Source: Siphonobacter curvatus (GTDB taxonomy: Bacteria > Bacteroidota > Bacteroidia > Cytophagales > Spirosomataceae). From it: DNA of 48,743 nucleotides. Each line of letters starts with the position of its first letter. Position 1 is the first letter of the stretch. The stretch covers positions 1 through 48,743 of the forward strand of contig NZ_PTRA01000012.1 of assembly GCF_002943425.1 (NCBI RefSeq), in the 5' to 3' direction. Below, in pieces: positions 16,440 through 31,490 of the stretch. The translations under genes were made by a program, and so were the position numbers. Under the pieces are notes generated by a model that was given only the letters and a program-made list of their open reading frames with translations, did no database searches and had not been told where the DNA came from.

Positions 16440-16512
16440 GTCTCCGTAGCTCAGTTGGTAGAGCAATTGACTCTTAATCAATGGGTCGCAGGTTCGAACC
16501 CTGCCGGGGACA
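16440..16512 (+). tRNA. tRNA-Lys (anticodon CTT)
   Basis: A full cloverleaf: acceptor GTCTCCG with CGGGGAC, D-stem GCTC/GAGC, anticodon stem ATTGA/TCAAT around loop CTCTTAA (anticodon CTT), five-base variable loop, T-arm GCAGG-TTCGAAC-CCTGC. Discriminator A at 16512; CCA is not encoded. Confidence 0.97.
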
Positions 16513-16518
16513 CTTCCT

Positions 16519-17238: not shown

Positions 17239-17263
17239 TAATAAAACCCTAGTTTTCGTGGAT
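17239..17263 (+). promoter_or_regulatory. Operator copy A of a paired regulatory element
   Basis: TAATAAAA, five variable bases, then GTTTTCGTGGAT. The same element occurs in inverted orientation at 21877-21901 in front of the other lipoprotein of the module. It contains a dyad AAAAC-N4-GTTTT. The 3' end lies 22 bases before the TAAATTTG -7 box and touches the -33 region, an activator-like position. Likely regulator: the LuxR-type protein at 20401. Confidence 0.65.
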
Positions 17264-17293
17264 TGATTTGCAGGATCCAGGCTAGTAAATTTG
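17262..17293 (+). promoter_or_regulatory. Promoter of the 17319 lipoprotein gene
   Basis: ATTG at 17262-17265, 20-base spacer, TAAATTTG at 17286-17293 (exact TANNTTTG). The -33 box deviates by one base and overlaps the end of the operator, fitting a promoter that needs activation. Confidence 0.65.
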
Positions 17294-17318
17294 AATTCGA
17301 TATATAAGCAAGAACGCC

Positions 17319-18281
17319 ATGAAAAAGTTATTTAGCACTGCCGTGCAGATTTTTACATTGTTAGTGTTCACCTGTTGTTCAAAAGATAACGCCGGAGGAT
17401 CCAGTCCTTATCCTTCTTTATTGAAAGGTACCATTTATTATGACTGGGCTACTGAAGGTATTCTTAAGATGAGCCTGCCAGATGGTACGGGTGGATCTTT
17501 CATACCCGACGATTCCAAACTTAATAATTTTGATATTTCTCGCGATGGAAAATGGAAGCTGACAGCCGTGAATGCAAGTACATACGGACAATATGATGTC
17601 AGGTTTACGATCAGCGATATGAACAGTGGAAAAATAGTAGAGGAATTTATATACAATAGCCCTGCAGGTAATAGCTATTGTAAAGGTTATTTATCGCCTG
17701 ACAATAGTTTGATCTTGGTCACATCAAACGACTTTCAAGACGGTATCACAATCTTAAAACGAAACGGTGAATTTGTAGCACGTATCGTGGACATCAATGG
17801 TGAAAGACTTGGTATCAATGAATCTCGCTTCTGGCTACCGGGAAATAACGTCATCTTTACACATGGTAAATATATTATTAAGATGGCACCTCCTTTTAGT
17901 TCTGGAACATTAATTAAGGAAATGAGCTATCAGGATTGGGGCAAGCTAACGGTTAACCAGACAGGTACACAGTTTGCCTTAAGTATTGGCAATCATATTT
18001 ACACGATGGATGCAAATGGGAATGACCTTAAGCAGGTGACTTCAAGCAATTTTAAAGAATCTGTACCGGAGTTTTCTCCGGATGGAAAACATTTGTTGAT
18101 TGGTACCAATTATCGATCTACCGGAACGCTCGGTTATTCATGGGACTTGAAAATCATTCCCAATGATGGAAAGCAATATAATGTTGATTCAGATGCAACT
18201 AATTCTCGTGAAGTTATTCCTGTAATCTGGAGAGGAAAAGACAAAATTGAAAGTGCTGGTGGACAAATGATCTGGAGGTGA
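17319..18281 (+). CDS. Lipoprotein with TolB/WD40-like beta-propeller repeats
   Basis: 320 residues with a signal peptide and a lipobox-like end (FTCCSKD). The body shows repeating beta units with the PD40-type signature, best seen in FDISRDGKWKLTAV, YLSPDNSLILVTS, LTVNQTGTQFALSIGNHIYT and PEFSPDGKHLLIGTN. These are TolB-like propellers, generally ligand- or protein-binding scaffolds in the envelope. It is the first gene of a module with a histidine kinase and response regulator on the same strand (105-base gap) and a second lipoprotein that shares its operator. A sensory or target role in that circuit is inference. Base composition is clearly more AT-rich than the flanking housekeeping genes. 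Confidence 0.75.
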   Translation: MKKLFSTAVQIFTLLVFTCCSKDNAGGSSPYPSLLKGTIYYDWATEGILKMSLPDGTGGSFIPDDSKLNNFDISRDGKWKLTAVNASTYGQYDVRFTISDMNSGKIVEEFIYNSPAGNSYCKGYLSPDNSLILVTSNDFQDGITILKRNGEFVARIVDINGERLGINESRFWLPGNNVIFTHGKYIIKMAPPFSSGTLIKEMSYQDWGKLTVNQTGTQFALSIGNHIYTMDANGNDLKQVTSSNFKESVPEFSPDGKHLLIGTNYRSTGTLGYSWDLKIIPNDGKQYNVDSDATNSREVIPVIWRGKDKIESAGGQMIWR

Positions 18282-18386
18282 TATGAGGTGCTGTTAGATA
18301 CGATGGATTTGGTATTTTATGCCGCAGCTCTCAATGGTTAGTTAAAATTATTTTTTGTTCGAGAATCAATATAGTGCGTCAGGTGC

Positions 18387-20408
18387 ATGAATAAAATAGC
18401 AGTATGTATTGCAGTACTTTATGGACTTACGATAATCAATAGTTTCGCTCAGACTAAGAATGAGCTTCAACAGCATAGTGATAGCTTATATCAGCAATTG
18501 CTGCAACTCAAAGATCAGGAGCACAAGGCTAAAGCACTTTATAACTTAAGTTTTTTTTGGTCTGATTTCGATACTGTAAAGGCCCTAAGGTATATAGGCG
18601 AAGCGGAACAACTACTGGGGGCAAAAAGCAAATCCAGCTACTACAGAGGATTGTCTAGTTTTTACCGTGCTGCAGTCTATTTTGACACAGCCCCATTAAA
18701 GGCGAAGCAGCTTTATTTACAGGCGGAAGTTCAGCTTAAGCAAACTGATAAAAATAATGAACCGGATGCTCAAAGACATCTTGCAAGGCTCTGGGGAAGT
18801 TATGGAGCATTGCTTCAACGCGATGGGAAATCGGATGAATATGTAAATATATTACTGAATAAAGTAATCCCCCTAGCCAAACATCTCAAAGATTCTACCC
18901 TGCTGGGCAATAATTACCAAAATGTTGCCATGGCCTTAATGAACCTGAAAGCATTTAATAAGGCTCAACAGCATTATGAAAATGCTTGGAATTTATTAAA
19001 GGGAAGGAAAGATGCGGATGAGCAGCTTTTTACGCTATCTGTAAACGCTGCCCGAAATGCCCTGTTTCGTAAAGATGATTTAAAATCCAAAATATTCTTG
19101 GACAAAGCGGATGTATTAGCCCAGCGTATTCCCAACTCAGCTTATATTCCTATCTACCATAGTGTGGCAGGAAGCTATTGGGCAGTGCAAAAAAATATGT
19201 CCAAAGCCAATAGGCATTTTGAACAAGGGCTTCATACGGCGAAAAAACAGCATAACGACGATATGGCAGCCACCATAATTTATGACCAGTTCAGTGCCTT
19301 GCAGTCCGCCAGGCAATATCAGGCTGCCATGAACAAATTGTTAACGGTACTGCCTTATGTACAAACCAACAAGTCCCTAAGAAATAAACAGATGGTATAT
19401 TATAACCTAGCAAATACAGCTGTTAAGTTGGGACAATATCAAAAAGCTATCAACTGGTACGAAGCCCATAAAAAACTGTCAGACACTCTCTTTTTGGACA
19501 AAGGCGAAGAGCGAATCATAGAATTGGAAAAAATCTATCAAACTACGGAAAAAGAGAAAGAACTTTTGCGGATAAAGACAGAGAACCAGCAACATCAACT
19601 CTCCCTACACAAGACCCGCCTGTGGGTCGGTATTCTTGTCTTAGCTATTCTTGTCTTATCCTCCTTATCCTTTACCTGGTACTCCGCACTCAATAACAAG
19701 AAAAAATTGGCGAAGCAGGAAGAAATGTTCCTAAAGGAGGAAATGAAAAATCGTAGACAACAGGAAAAATTGAATCTTTATAATGCCATGTTACAGGGCC
19801 AGGAAAGAGAGCGTAATCGCATCGCACGGGACTTGCACGATGGATTGGGTGGCATGCTGGCAAGTACTAAATTAAAACTTTCTGCGGTTGCCGCGAATAT
19901 TAACCCTAAAAGAGAAACAACTATAGATTTGAATATAATCATTAGTCAGTTGGACCATTCGGTTGACGAGCTTCGGCGGATAGCACGCAATATGATGCCA
20001 GAATCTTTATTATATATGGGGCTCGAAGCCGCCCTAAGGGATTTATGCAATGCCATGTCACAGACGGATTTGCAAATTGATTTTCAAGCATCAAATCTAC
20101 GTGAGGACTATCCGCAGGCTTTTCTGATTGCAGTATACAGGATTTTACAGGAGTTACTGACCAATGCCGTAAAGCATAGCGGAGCTTCGCAGGTGTGGGT
20201 ACAGTGTACCGAAGTTGAGGATAAATTTCATATCAATGTTGAGGATAACGGCAAGGGATTTGATCCAAAAAATGAGCTACTGTCTAAAGAAGGAATTGGC
20301 ATTTCCAACATCCGCAACCGGGTAGATATATTGAATGGACAATTGGAGATCGATGCCGCCATAGGTAACGGAGCATCATTCCATATTCAACTTAATGTAA
20401 ATGGATAA
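18387..20408 (+). CDS. TPR sensor histidine kinase (HisKA_3 type)
   Basis: 673 residues. A signal peptide (ends SFAQ) is followed by about 380 residues of TPR-like helices (for example ALYNLSFFWSDFDTVKALRY, NYQNVAMALMNLKAFNKAQQ, YYNLANTAVKLGQYQKAINW), probably periplasmic. A coiled coil leads to a single membrane segment (VGILVLAILVLSSLSFTWY). The cytoplasmic part has the dimerisation/phosphoacceptor motif RIARDLHDGLGG with His484, then a HATPase domain with the N box ELLTNAVKHSG, DNGKGFD, and GIGISNIRNRV. All catalytic motifs are intact. The gene overlaps the response regulator gene by 8 bases, so they are translationally linked partners. Confidence 0.93.
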   Translation: MNKIAVCIAVLYGLTIINSFAQTKNELQQHSDSLYQQLLQLKDQEHKAKALYNLSFFWSDFDTVKALRYIGEAEQLLGAKSKSSYYRGLSSFYRAAVYFDTAPLKAKQLYLQAEVQLKQTDKNNEPDAQRHLARLWGSYGALLQRDGKSDEYVNILLNKVIPLAKHLKDSTLLGNNYQNVAMALMNLKAFNKAQQHYENAWNLLKGRKDADEQLFTLSVNAARNALFRKDDLKSKIFLDKADVLAQRIPNSAYIPIYHSVAGSYWAVQKNMSKANRHFEQGLHTAKKQHNDDMAATIIYDQFSALQSARQYQAAMNKLLTVLPYVQTNKSLRNKQMVYYNLANTAVKLGQYQKAINWYEAHKKLSDTLFLDKGEERIIELEKIYQTTEKEKELLRIKTENQQHQLSLHKTRLWVGILVLAILVLSSLSFTWYSALNNKKKLAKQEEMFLKEEMKNRRQQEKLNLYNAMLQGQERERNRIARDLHDGLGGMLASTKLKLSAVAANINPKRETTIDLNIIISQLDHSVDELRRIARNMMPESLLYMGLEAALRDLCNAMSQTDLQIDFQASNLREDYPQAFLIAVYRILQELLTNAVKHSGASQVWVQCTEVEDKFHINVEDNGKGFDPKNELLSKEGIGISNIRNRVDILNGQLEIDAAIGNGASFHIQLNVNG

Positions 20409-21024
20409 AATTATTTCAGTAATTATCATAGACGATCATCCTCTGGTGTTGAATGGGTTTGAATTTATCTTGAAAAATACGACCGAAATTGTATTGAAAG
20501 GTACATTTACTCGTGCCGAAGATGCTTTGGAATTTTTAAATAAGCAGCCGATAGATGTTGTCTTGGTCGACATTAACATGCCGGGAATGAACGGTATTGA
20601 CACTACCGCGGTGATAAAGAAGGATTATCCAAACACGCAGGTTATCGCAATTAGTAACCTGAACGAAGGAAGCATTGCACTCCGTATGCTCCAAACTGGG
20701 GCTTTGGGTTATCTACTTAAAAATACATCAGCTGAAGACCTGATTACGAGTATTCATGCCGTCCATAAGGGGGAACAGGTCTTAAGTCGGGAAATGAAAT
20801 TTATAAAAATGGCTAATCAACAGGACACTATTCCAAAAATCACCGAAAGGGAACGGGAAGTACTTAAATGGATGGCCCAGGGGTTTACGACCCCTAAGAT
20901 AGGAGAATTGATGTTTATTAGCCCACTAACTGTTGAGAGCCATAGAAGAAATCTATTACAAAAATTTGACGTAAGCAATACAGCCTCACTGATTCACAAA
21001 GCAACTGCAATGAAGTATATCTAG
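20401..21024 (+). CDS. LuxR/NarL-family response regulator
   Basis: 207 residues: receiver domain 1-125 and a C-terminal LuxR helix-turn-helix at about 145-205. The receiver has the acidic pair Asp11/Asp12, phospho-acceptor Asp57 (VVLVDINMPGMNG), the conserved Ser in AISNL and the Lys in YLLKNTS. The output domain reads ITEREREVLKWMAQGFTTPK, then ISPLTVESHRRNLLQKFDV, the standard GerE pattern. Its ATG lies inside the end of the kinase gene. The paired elements at 17239-17263 and 21877-21901 are the obvious candidates for its binding sites, with an AAAAC-N4-GTTTT dyad of the size NarL-like domains bind. Confidence 0.94.
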   Translation: MDKIISVIIIDDHPLVLNGFEFILKNTTEIVLKGTFTRAEDALEFLNKQPIDVVLVDINMPGMNGIDTTAVIKKDYPNTQVIAISNLNEGSIALRMLQTGALGYLLKNTSAEDLITSIHAVHKGEQVLSREMKFIKMANQQDTIPKITEREREVLKWMAQGFTTPKIGELMFISPLTVESHRRNLLQKFDVSNTASLIHKATAMKYI

Positions 21025-21153
21025 AGATGTTACAATACCATAACACATATATACCGATCTGCATAATCTAACTTAAAAATATAGTCTATCTCAAACTTAT
21101 TAAATTTAAAAAGTTCAGGATACGAATTGAGTCTTAGTTTAGGCAATTGAACA

Positions 21154-21786
21154 CTAGTGGCATACGGGTACATAGATAAGATCAATGCCCCCAGAATAGA
21201 GGTTGAAAGTCGGTCGGCTTTCCCAAACGATTGTGCAGCCTTGTTGCCCACCACCAGCTTGTTGACTACCAGATCTTACGAGTTCAAAATGCGTATCTAA
21301 GATGGATTCCTCTGGTATCCCACCTTCTTCGCTGAGGTATTTAGTCTTTACATCTAGCATAAGCTTGTCGTCAAAAAGACGACCCTTCCACGTTATCTTC
21401 TTAGCACTGGTTGTAACAGACCCGTTTATTTCACCATTGTCTTTGATAGATACCTCGCTGGGATCAGCACTAAACTTCCAGGATTGGCCATTTTGCTTCC
21501 CAGGAATGGATAAGGAAAATCCCTCTTGTCCAGAAAGTTCCATCCGCAGCACAAGCCTTGAACTATCCCCTTTGATTTTATCTATGCTGAATGATCCTGT
21601 ACCATCAATAGATGGTAAGCGGTCGTAACCGCGTAAGTACATCGTGGACCGTGCCGTGCCCATATATGCCTGTCTATTCATGCGTTCATTGAATGAATGC
21701 AACTCTGAGTCAGGATTTTGCGACTTTCCACATCCTAAAGTTGTGAGTAAAAACAGTAGAATTAAAAAATTGATAGTGCAATTCAT
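21154..21786 (-). CDS. Hypothetical lipoprotein, 210 aa, of the two-component module
   Basis: Lipoprotein signal with lipobox (TTLGCGK, Cys19). The mature part is predicted to be mostly beta-strand (SSRLVLRMELSGQEGFSLSI, NGEINGSVTTSAKKITWKGR, DDKLMLDVKTKYL), with a glycine/glutamine-rich stretch near residues 173-182 and cysteines at Cys183 and Cys209 that might form a disulfide. No family is recognised. It converges on the response regulator gene (129 bases apart) and is preceded by the same operator as the 17319 lipoprotein gene, so it is probably co-regulated with it. AT-rich like the rest of the module. Confidence 0.75.
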   Translation of the reverse strand: MNCTINFLILLFLLTTLGCGKSQNPDSELHSFNERMNRQAYMGTARSTMYLRGYDRLPSIDGTGSFSIDKIKGDSSRLVLRMELSGQEGFSLSIPGKQNGQSWKFSADPSEVSIKDNGEINGSVTTSAKKITWKGRLFDDKLMLDVKTKYLSEEGGIPEESILDTHFELVRSGSQQAGGGQQGCTIVWESRPTFNLYSGGIDLIYVPVCH

Positions 21787-21846
21787 AGCTATATGTTTAG
21801 TATTACCTGATTCGTAAGTTGTGTTACCTACGGCTAATAATTAGTG

Positions 21847-21854
21847 TAAAATTA
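21847..21854 (-). promoter_or_regulatory. Candidate -7 box of the 21154-21786 lipoprotein gene
   Basis: The minus strand reads TAATTTTA (seven of eight positions of TANNTTTG), exactly 22 bases after the operator, the same spacing as at the 17286-17293 promoter. It implies a leader of about 55 bases. Confidence 0.55.
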
Positions 21855-21876
21855 AGTGTTATGCTTTTTTCTTACT

Positions 21877-21901
21877 ATCCACGAAAACCGTGATTTTATT
21901 A
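21877..21901 (-). promoter_or_regulatory. Operator copy B of the paired regulatory element
   Basis: Read toward the lipoprotein gene: TAATAAAA, TCACG, GTTTTCGTGGAT. Twenty of 25 positions are identical to copy A, with the five differences confined to the central spacer. Both copies point to a lipoprotein gene and have identical distance to the -7 box. Confidence 0.65.
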
Positions 21902-29399: not shown

Positions 29400-31490
29400 T
29401 CAGGCTTTAGCCGCAACCGCTTCTTCGCGGAACGCCTTCGCCCGTTGAAGAAAATCCAGAGCCTCTCCCAGAAAACGCTCGGCGAACTCCGGCGAGGGTT
29501 CCTGTTGATTAATCTGTAGTACTCGTTCCGTAAAGGTTTGACCGGCGAACGAGAATTCGCCGCTTTCCACAAATTGCTTGTCAAATTCTTTAATGACCGC
29601 ATGTTGCGTACTTACGCTAACGCTCTTGTCCAGTAACAGAGCTTTCGCTCCCGAGACAAAAACGCTGTAGCTATAGTAGATCGAATCGGCGTAGCGACCT
29701 TCTTTCAAGGCTTGCTCGGCCCAATCGAATTTCTCTTCGGTTTCGAAAAGCAGCGTAGCCACCAGATCGATAATCACGCTGGCACATTCACCTACGCCAA
29801 TTTCCGTAGCAAAAGATTCGGTTTGACCCCAGTCTACAAAATCGCTGTCAACCACTGTGGAGAGATCCGTCAGCGGTTTCAGAATGCCGTAGAAGTATTT
29901 TTCACCCTGACGATCGTAGTAATCATTGAAATACTCGCCGTCATTAGCGTTTTGTTCGTAATCATTCAGAATCCAACGCAGGGCTTGCGGACCACGTTTC
30001 GACGGAATCTTAATGACTTTATCAGCTACCCGACCCGAGCCATCGCCCAGCGTTCCACCACCCAGCAGAACCTGTAAAGCGGGCAATACACGTTTATCCG
30101 GAGCTTTCATCGAGCTGCCATGTAAACCAATCTGGGCCATGCTGTGCTGACCGCAGGCGTTCATACAGCCCGAGATTTTAATGAGAATGTCATTGTTGAA
30201 AATTAGGTCAGGAAATTCCTGCCCAATGACTTTTTCCAGTTCCAGTGAAATGGACGTCGAATCGGAAATGGCCAGGTTGCAGGTATCCGTACCGGGGCAG
30301 GCCGTGATGTTGGCCGTACTGTTCGCACCAGGTTGAGCCAACTCGTGAGCCGCCAGAATTTCGTAGACGCGGGGTAAATCTTCCGCTTTTACAAAACGGA
30401 ACAACAGGCCCTGGTTGATTGATACCCGAACATCGTTGGCAACGTAAGGCTCGATCTGTCCGATCAGGCTACGGCTGGTTTCGGAATGAATATTGCCCAG
30501 CGGTACGCGTACGAATACGCCGTAGTAGCCGCTCTGTTTTTGCGGGAATACGTTGGATTTCAACCATTGGTTGTAGACCTCGTCCGTTGCATACGCCAGT
30601 GACCCTGTCGGTACTTCCAGTGCAGCTTCTACTGGAGCTTCAATCGTATACGTTTTGGATTTCAGGGCGGTCCATTCTTCCGTAACCAGTCGCTTGAACT
30701 CATCGAAACCGATTTTAGCAATCAGGAATTTCAAACGAGCCTTATGACGGCTGTTGCGTTCGCCGTGACGATCGAAAATGCGTAAAACCGCTTCCACCGT
30801 CGGAATAAGCTGATCGACGGGTAAAAATTCGTGGTACAGGTGAGCCAATGCCGGTTGGGCACCTAGGCCGCCCCCCACCAGTACTTTAAAACCCCGCTGC
30901 CCATCCTTGATTTTAGGAACAAAGCCTAAATCGTGCATATAGGACAGGGCCGTATCGGCGTCGGAGCTGGAGAAGGAAATCTTGAATTTCCGGCCCATCT
31001 CCTGACAAATCGGATTTCGAAGGAAATAACGGAAAGTAGCATCCGCGTAAGGCGTGACGTCGAAGGGCTCCTGCGGATCAATACCCGCCGTTGGTGAGGC
31101 CGTTACGTTCCGTACGGTATTTCCGCAGGCTTCGCGAAGGGTAATGTCATCCTGTTCGAGTTTGGCCCAGAGTTCGGGCGTACGATCCAGGCTAACGAAG
31201 TGAATCTGAATATCTTGACGCGTTGTTAGGTGCAGATTTCCCGTGGAATATTCGTCCGAAATATCCGCAATGCGTTTCCACTGGTTAAACGTCATTTTGC
31301 CGTAGGGCAATTTGATACGAACCATCTGAACGCCCTGTTGCCGCTGACCGTATACTCCCCGGGCCAGACGCAGGCTTCTAAACTTTTCCTCGTGAATTTT
31401 TCCCTCCCGGAAAAGGCGGATTTTTCGCTCTAAATCGACGATATCTTTTTCTACGAGGGGATTCTCCAGTTCGGTACGGAAACTTTGCAT
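29400..31490 (-). CDS. Siroheme-dependent nitrite/sulfite reductase with C-terminal helical (HEPN-like) extension
   Basis: 696 residues. Two duplicated ferredoxin-like/siroheme domains bind a coupled 4Fe-4S/siroheme centre. The four cluster cysteines are Cys398 and Cys404 (ACPGTDTCNLA) and Cys442 and Cys446 (SGCMNACGQH). Substrate arginines are probably in TGNLHLTTRQD and in REACGNTVRNV. Pairing with cobA suggests assimilatory sulfite reduction, though nitrite reduction cannot be excluded. Residues about 560-690, beyond the usual end, form a helical domain (DWAEQALKEGRYADSIYYSY, SGAKALLLDK) that resembles HEPN proteins. The start ATG 31488 is preceded by a clear promoter. No sulfate-activation genes are in the window. 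Confidence 0.92.
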   Translation of the reverse strand: MQSFRTELENPLVEKDIVDLERKIRLFREGKIHEEKFRSLRLARGVYGQRQQGVQMVRIKLPYGKMTFNQWKRIADISDEYSTGNLHLTTRQDIQIHFVSLDRTPELWAKLEQDDITLREACGNTVRNVTASPTAGIDPQEPFDVTPYADATFRYFLRNPICQEMGRKFKISFSSSDADTALSYMHDLGFVPKIKDGQRGFKVLVGGGLGAQPALAHLYHEFLPVDQLIPTVEAVLRIFDRHGERNSRHKARLKFLIAKIGFDEFKRLVTEEWTALKSKTYTIEAPVEAALEVPTGSLAYATDEVYNQWLKSNVFPQKQSGYYGVFVRVPLGNIHSETSRSLIGQIEPYVANDVRVSINQGLLFRFVKAEDLPRVYEILAAHELAQPGANSTANITACPGTDTCNLAISDSTSISLELEKVIGQEFPDLIFNNDILIKISGCMNACGQHSMAQIGLHGSSMKAPDKRVLPALQVLLGGGTLGDGSGRVADKVIKIPSKRGPQALRWILNDYEQNANDGEYFNDYYDRQGEKYFYGILKPLTDLSTVVDSDFVDWGQTESFATEIGVGECASVIIDLVATLLFETEEKFDWAEQALKEGRYADSIYYSYSVFVSGAKALLLDKSVSVSTQHAVIKEFDKQFVESGEFSFAGQTFTERVLQINQQEPSPEFAERFLGEALDFLQRAKAFREEAVAAKA

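Follow-up and report, generated by a model that had tools for sequence, protein, structure and literature searches.

A candidate operator shared by a TPR kinase-response regulator pair and its flanking lipoprotein genes in Siphonobacter curvatus

In Siphonobacter curvatus, two identical copies of a short element, each at the same distance from a promoter box, flank a histidine kinase gene, a response regulator gene and two lipoprotein genes, an arrangement that raises the question of which protein reads the element and to what effect. The initial annotation of the locus proposed that the regulator activates both lipoprotein genes, forming a closed envelope-sensing circuit. Judging from sequence comparison, we consider it highly probable that the response regulator binds both elements and activates lipA, its own operon and lipB, and probable that this regulon was acquired as a unit.

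The two elements and the genes they flank

The window, by which we mean the whole stretch of 48,743 nucleotides of S. curvatus DNA that was analysed, contains the 25-base element TAATAAAA-N5-GTTTTCGTGGAT at 17239-17263 on the forward strand and, inverted, at 21877-21901 on the reverse strand. Both copies match without a mismatch, and shuffled sequence is expected to give only 0.02 matches even when up to three mismatches are allowed. As the initial annotation had noted, each copy is followed after exactly 22 bases by a -7-like box (TAAATTTG and TAATTTTA). Pfam confirms a TPR/HisKA_3/HATPase kinase and a REC plus GerE regulator between the two copies, and both outer genes, lipA and lipB, encode proteins with a lipobox-type N-terminus.

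The order in the window is thus operator 1, lipA, TPR kinase, NarL-type regulator, convergent lipB and operator 2. Candidate operator 1 (17239-17265, forward strand) has its conserved part at about 17243-17265, AAAACCCTA-GTTTTCGTGGATTG, and its terminal TTG sits 20 bases ahead of the lipA -7 box, TAAATTTG (17286-17293, forward strand; consensus TAnnTTTG). Then come lipA (17319-18281, forward), encoding a 320-aa predicted lipoprotein, the gene for the sensor kinase (18387-20408, forward; TPR, HisKA_3 and HATPase_c by Pfam) and that for the NarL/FixJ-type response regulator (20401-21024, forward), which overlaps the kinase open reading frame (ORF) by 8 bases. On the reverse strand, lipB (21154-21786; a 210-aa predicted lipoprotein) is preceded by a -7-like box (21847-21854) whose last base is off consensus and by candidate operator 2 (21875-21901), which reads TAATAAAATCACG-GTTTTCGTGGAT followed by AG in place of TG. 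Site 2 therefore departs from the consensus at two places, having GGATAG without the TTG and TAATTTTA without the final G; the lipB counterparts in two genomes of the genus Sphingobacterium (G873 and G844) have GGATTG together with TAGTTTTG or TAATTTTG. When the 6.39-Mb genome was searched with up to three mismatches, six matches were found, namely, the two exact sites of the window and four with three mismatches, each of which lies within a long ORF, and at that tolerance the genome has no promoter copy beyond the two window sites.

The kinase has a hydrophobic signal-like start, a TPR region and one hydrophobic stretch at about residues 405-436, and because of this arrangement the TPR region is predicted to be periplasmic. 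Residues H484 and N593 of the kinase are invariant in 14 relatives, and D57 and K107 of the regulator are invariant in 18 aligned rows, so that kinase and regulator both look functional. The REC (89.8 bits) and GerE (62.3 bits) matches of the regulator exceed the Pfam cutoffs, and the solved chains nearest its profile are VraR (the closest), NarL and DesR. PADLOC made no defence assignment, although the regulator gave two weak hits against CARF models.

Neither lipA nor lipB matched a Pfam family at 0.001. The lipA product is beta-rich and weakly resembles TolB/PD40/WD40 propellers; its profile aligns with short segments of WD40 and TolB chains, its PD40 match has an E value of 0.077 (3e-4 to 5e-4 for two relatives), and its AF2 model has a pLDDT of 87.7. 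The lipB product is also beta-rich (AF2 model pLDDT, 82.6), and none of its matches to solved chains fell below an E value of 0.19. In an alignment of 22 lipA rows, C20 is invariant and S21 and K22 are nearly so. The signal for export of surface lipoproteins in Bacteroidota that we draw from PMC5080379 is C-X-K-(D/E)2 after the lipid cysteine, and neither CSKDN of the window's lipA nor CGKSQ of its lipB is the full motif in that form. C-x-K-[DE] was found in 21 of 43 lipoproteins by a rough automatic test that missed the lipoboxes in several rows.

Conserved form and distribution of the element

To define the conserved form of the element, we scanned genome_contigs with the pattern GTTTTCGTGGATNGN{19,22}TANNTTTG and obtained 46 matches across 45 stretches. 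Four were dropped as chance matches: three from other phyla by title (L092, L115 and L125, of which L115 also lies inside an ORF) and one intragenic match in a Bacteroidota metagenome-assembled genome (MAG) (L127). The 42 sites kept are all from Bacteroidota, mostly Sphingobacterium, with others from Parapedobacter, Pedobacter, Arcticibacter, Pararcticibacter, Pontibacter, Siphonobacter, Rhabdobacter and one Bacteroidales MAG; two of them are flagged, one lying within an open-ended ORF that is an upstream extension of lipA (L101) and one overlapping a long reverse-strand ORF (L103). A matrix was built from the 41 sites with full flanks, 35 after removal of near-duplicates. The left flank, AAAATCCY, is conserved although it lay outside the search pattern, with T at position -5 in 32 of the 35 sites, C at -4 in 30 and C at -3 in 33. 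The conserved element is therefore about 23 bp long, AAAATCCYN-GTTTTCGTGGATTG, and usually stands 20 bases 5' of TAnnTTTG; where the pattern allowed 19 to 22 bases between GGATTG and the -7 box, the spacer is 20 bases in 39 of the 42 sites, 21 in two and 19 in one.

These sites redraw the element as first described. Its outer TAAT is not conserved among relatives, the five bases called variable are instead partly conserved, with the consensus TCCY, and the right end reaches further, to TTG. Of the two window sites, only site 1 has the proposed AAAAC-N4-GTTTT dyad, and at position -5 three of the 35 sites have C and 32 have T. An alternative dyad, the inverted repeat AATCC-N10-GGATT, is suggestive only, AATCC being present in 20 of the 42 sites. 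TAnnTTTG is a known -7 consensus (PMC9723704, PMC7366714); in these papers, TTTG near -33 is deduced for Bacteroides fragilis (PMC9723704, PMC7366714) and a -33 motif is described as not identified in Flavobacterium johnsoniae (PMC7366714). The closing TTG of the element sits at the expected position of the -33 box.

A check suggested by the initial annotation was to look for the element at orthologous loci, and it is present at most of those seen. Among 93 genomes of the genus Sphingobacterium, it was found in 27, all of which belong to the 30 lipA-bearing genomes; the 63 that lack lipA gave no match (Fisher test, 2e-20, a value that overstates independence because many of the genomes counted are close kin). 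These 93 genomes gave 39 pattern matches and the reversed control gave none; 31 genomes picked for having the element gave 43 and none, respectively. The TG is missing from three of the 39, one of them the sole match to the pattern in G853; the lipA site of that genome combines the 12-mer with a poor -7 box. A protein search for lipA in the same 93 genomes returned 33 matches in 30 genomes, and taking one locus per genome (30 loci), we found the exact 12-mer within 1,400 bases upstream in 26. In five of these 26, the site lies 860 to 1,040 bases from lipA because an element-bearing lipB gene precedes it. All 26 continue with TG, and TAnnTTTG stands at exactly +22 in 24. As for the other four loci, L188 has the 12-mer with one mismatch and L189 with two, and no recognisable element was seen upstream of lipA in L190 and L193.

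The same association was found in the window's own family, in which six of 222 genomes had a match. One match was intragenic (G188); the other five were promoter-placed, and those five genomes are exactly the ones with a kinase at least 43% identical to that of the window (Fisher test with G188 excluded, 2e-10, again made optimistic by kinship). The reversed control gave three matches in these 222 genomes. A stricter pattern found only the window among 390 genomes of the order, a sample that lacks the four other positive family members. A kinase search of 247 genomes of the class returned the window and G756, at 34% identity; neither the G756 locus nor five loci at order level, whose kinases are 30 to 33% identical, yielded an element. 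A related-locus search with the kinase as the query found nothing, viral contigs scanned for the element gave no match, and plasmids searched for the kinase at 1e-40 gave none.

All 42 kept sites precede genes of the lipA type, the lipB type, the kinase or a few other secreted proteins. The gene downstream is of the lipA type at 27 sites (including L131, a short fragment judged by eye and lacking a tblastn match), lipB at four, the related lipB2 at three and the kinase itself at three; at two sites it is VYVE, a secreted 145-aa protein, at two it is a gene for a lipocalin-like lipoprotein, with VYVE next in line, and at one, in L110, another lipoprotein gene. In Rhabdobacter roseus, the element stands directly 5' of the kinase-regulator pair; in the Siphonobacter MAG G002, it is followed by lipA, lipB2, kinase and regulator; and in Pedobacter antarcticus, it stands ahead of lipA just past the regulator. 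Relatives of VYVE occur in 16 of the 222 family genomes, three of which (G002, G005 and G201) have the element at the promoter, and each of these three carries the close kinase; no element was found at the remaining 13 VYVE loci. This set of downstream genes is consistent with an operon that regulates itself and a small number of satellite genes.

Several further features were seen at related loci. The kinase of G002 is split into two ORFs (L029:5446-7438), possibly through a sequencing error or decay of the gene. In G853, a variant site, AAATACTG-GTTTTCGTGGATTTT followed by TAAATTTG, lies ahead of a secreted 209-aa ORF (L203:1501-1541); this could be one more target, its site differing at the right end. 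Beside the lipocalin-VYVE pair of two Siphonobacter MAG loci (L040 and L041) is a gene whose C-terminal domain we take, by eye, to be of the LytTR type. In six genomes of a more distant group of loci, g32 (G142, G143, G156, G157, G174 and G177), VYVE lies divergently about 4 to 4.5 kb from the kinase, a second connection between this secreted family and that of the kinase. Upstream of VYVE in a g32 locus is a perfect 23-base inverted repeat with 11 bases between its arms (L082:1344-1400), possibly another operator or a terminator; ahead of VYVE in L080, where the repeat search listed a different one, a similar repeat can be seen.

The regulator, its likely action and the origin of the module

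We compared the recognition helices of those regulators that fitted a preset helix-turn-helix expression, which three of the six other distant loci did not yield. The helix [PK]LTVE[ST]HRRNLL[QH]KF is present in 23 of 24 regulators from element-bearing genomes or loci, the exception being L110, with PLTVDSHRKNLIIKL. The regulators of g32, whose kinases are 31 to 34% identical to that of the window, have THTVESHRKNL in 12 of 13 cases and SHTVESHRKNL in one, and no element was found in the fetched g32 stretches with up to three mismatches plus a -7 box. The regulators beside other kinases of 30 to 34% identity have ILTVISHRKNL (two) or PLTVDTHRKNL (one), and no element was found at these loci either. 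The g32 operons encode a lipoprotein with a YFWY-type start, which we take by eye to be an S41 peptidase, followed by the kinase and the regulator. No shared promoter motif was noticed in 11 aligned g32 upstream stretches; the aligned region is coding, so the head of the operon lies further upstream. The covariation of helix and element points to the local regulator as the binder.

An unlinked regulator might instead use the element to co-regulate these genes while the local pair acts elsewhere. In favour of this reading, some element sites have no kinase gene within the stretch examined, and a good element in L110 adjoins a distant regulator; we nonetheless think it unlikely, given that the promoter-placed element is confined to module-bearing genomes in the two sets scanned both ways and that genomes with the element share a recognition helix from which that of the g32 clade differs. 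The L110 locus itself (L110:5507-7728), from the Bacteroidales MAG, has its element between divergent genes for a NarL-type regulator only 31 to 32% alike and a 484-aa lipoprotein, and it may be that regulators of different lineages use the operator.

Binding by the local regulator could also mean repression, in a negative circuit, since the TTG end of the element falls at the expected -33 box. Activators typically bind at a fixed spacing, immediately upstream of the core promoter, and here the distance to the -7 box hardly varies from 20 bases. This geometry and the poor core promoter of site 2, which would need help, speak against repression, which we rate as slightly less probable still than an unlinked regulator. 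That the two copies are a coincidence or a mobile repeat with no regulatory meaning is scarcely credible: they are the only exact copies in the genome and adjoin a tRNA-Lys gene and DNA of foreign composition, but shuffling hardly ever yields them and the element is conserved, with its promoter spacing, at orthologous promoters in several genera.

Activation by the local regulator is thus the reading that we favour, because of the spacing and position of the element. Stimulation of the TPR kinase would lead to binding of the phosphorylated regulator to AAAATCCYN-GTTTTCGTGGATTG, adjoining and overlapping the -33 region, and the bound regulator would recruit polymerase with the housekeeping sigma factor to TAnnTTTG 20 bases downstream, in a class II-type activation. 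Expression of lipA would be raised, most likely together with that of the kinase and regulator genes via the same transcript (positive autoregulation), and lipB would be raised from the second, convergent promoter. We infer co-transcription of lipA, kinase and regulator, and the circuit probably includes the latter two genes because lipA heads that gene run. The lipoproteins would probably be the outputs and perhaps also interact, in feedback, with the periplasmic TPR domain. The circuit originally proposed gains from an element that tracks the module across genera, from activator-type geometry and from the lack of another promoter copy in this genome. The word "closed" suits genomes like this one only, some relatives having other secreted-protein targets, and envelope sensing by the module is a guess.

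The relationships of the module point outside its host. G873 and G844 have a layout identical to that of the window, with both elements present, and the nucleotide identity between G873 and the window is 78% over 17240-18286, 76% over 18346-21023 and 71% over 21150-21744, the homology beginning on the left at the element. The proteins of G873 are about 82% (lipA), 74% (kinase), 84% (regulator) and 70% (lipB) identical to those of the window, whereas identities within the genus are lower (lipA of G002, 60%; kinase of G005, 50%). In a tree of kinase plus regulator with 21 rows, the window is sister to G873/G844 (100/100), and the three are nested within a Sphingobacterium group (99/98), outside which the Siphonobacter congener falls on a long branch of unsure place. 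The GC3 of the four module genes is 0.36 to 0.41 versus 0.44 to 0.58 for nine flanking genes. These observations are most simply explained by transfer of the whole regulon; on this sequence evidence, the regulon was probably acquired with both operators from a Sphingobacterium-like source, a direction that we take from the nesting in the tree. A tRNA-Lys (CTT) gene lies at 16440-16513, just left of the foreign-looking module. As an attachment site it was rejected, no shared stretch of at least 11 bases having been found in the window up to position 30000.

A broader and more tentative reading, which we regard as possible though rather doubtful, is of a Sphingobacteriales/Cytophagales module whose secreted lipoproteins are under the control of the regulator and in turn act on the periplasmic TPR domain of the module's kinase; regulon and operators would move between orders as a unit, and some genomes would recruit further secreted proteins (VYVE and the lipocalin-like protein).

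Significance and comparison with known systems

None of the papers listed by a literature search described this kinase-regulator-lipoprotein system, and the one paper returned for the 12-mer concerns yeast and is unrelated. Autoregulated two-component systems with NarL-type regulators are already well known; to our knowledge, which is an impression and not an exhaustive survey, few operators of such regulators seem to have been defined in Bacteroidota. Here a regulator, its probable site, a promoter geometry and a small list of targets come together and can be tested at once. The module provides a way to approach the signals of TPR kinases, the pairing of recognition helix and site a rule for decoding related regulator pairs, and the locus a likely case of a complete regulon crossing between orders with both its operators.

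Among NCBIfam models, no cutoff is reached by the kinase, by lipA or, among the best 25 of its 106 matches, by the regulator, and no model is matched by lipB, VYVE or the lipocalin-like protein. The best models for the pair are MctS (kinase, 121.8 bits, covering residues 460-667 only) and MctR (regulator, 152.2 bits, again among the best 25 of 106), both far from their cutoffs of 700 and 300. For lipA, a 320-aa predicted lipoprotein, the TolB model scores 21.8 bits against a cutoff of 343.15. The regulator shares REC plus GerE and a whole-length profile match with the NarL/FixJ regulators NarL, VraR and DesR; its candidate operator is AAAATCCYN-GTTTTCGTGGATTG.

We take VraSR/LiaFSR to be the closest known design. 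LiaFSR and VraTSR are envelope stress systems of Firmicutes that respond to cell wall antibiotics, and in both a membrane protein of the LiaF/VraT type is encoded with the kinase-regulator pair. The module resembles them in pairing a HisKA_3/HATPase_c kinase with a NarL-type regulator, in having a gene for an envelope protein ahead of the kinase and in the positive autoregulation proposed here; of the solved chains, that of VraR lies nearest to the profile of the regulator, and the kinase aligns with the LiaS model, but at 83.4 bits against a cutoff of 450. Unlike LiaFSR and VraTSR, the module has a TPR sensor region, belongs to another phylum with another type of promoter, and has extra genes that encode predicted lipoproteins rather than a LiaF/VraT membrane protein.
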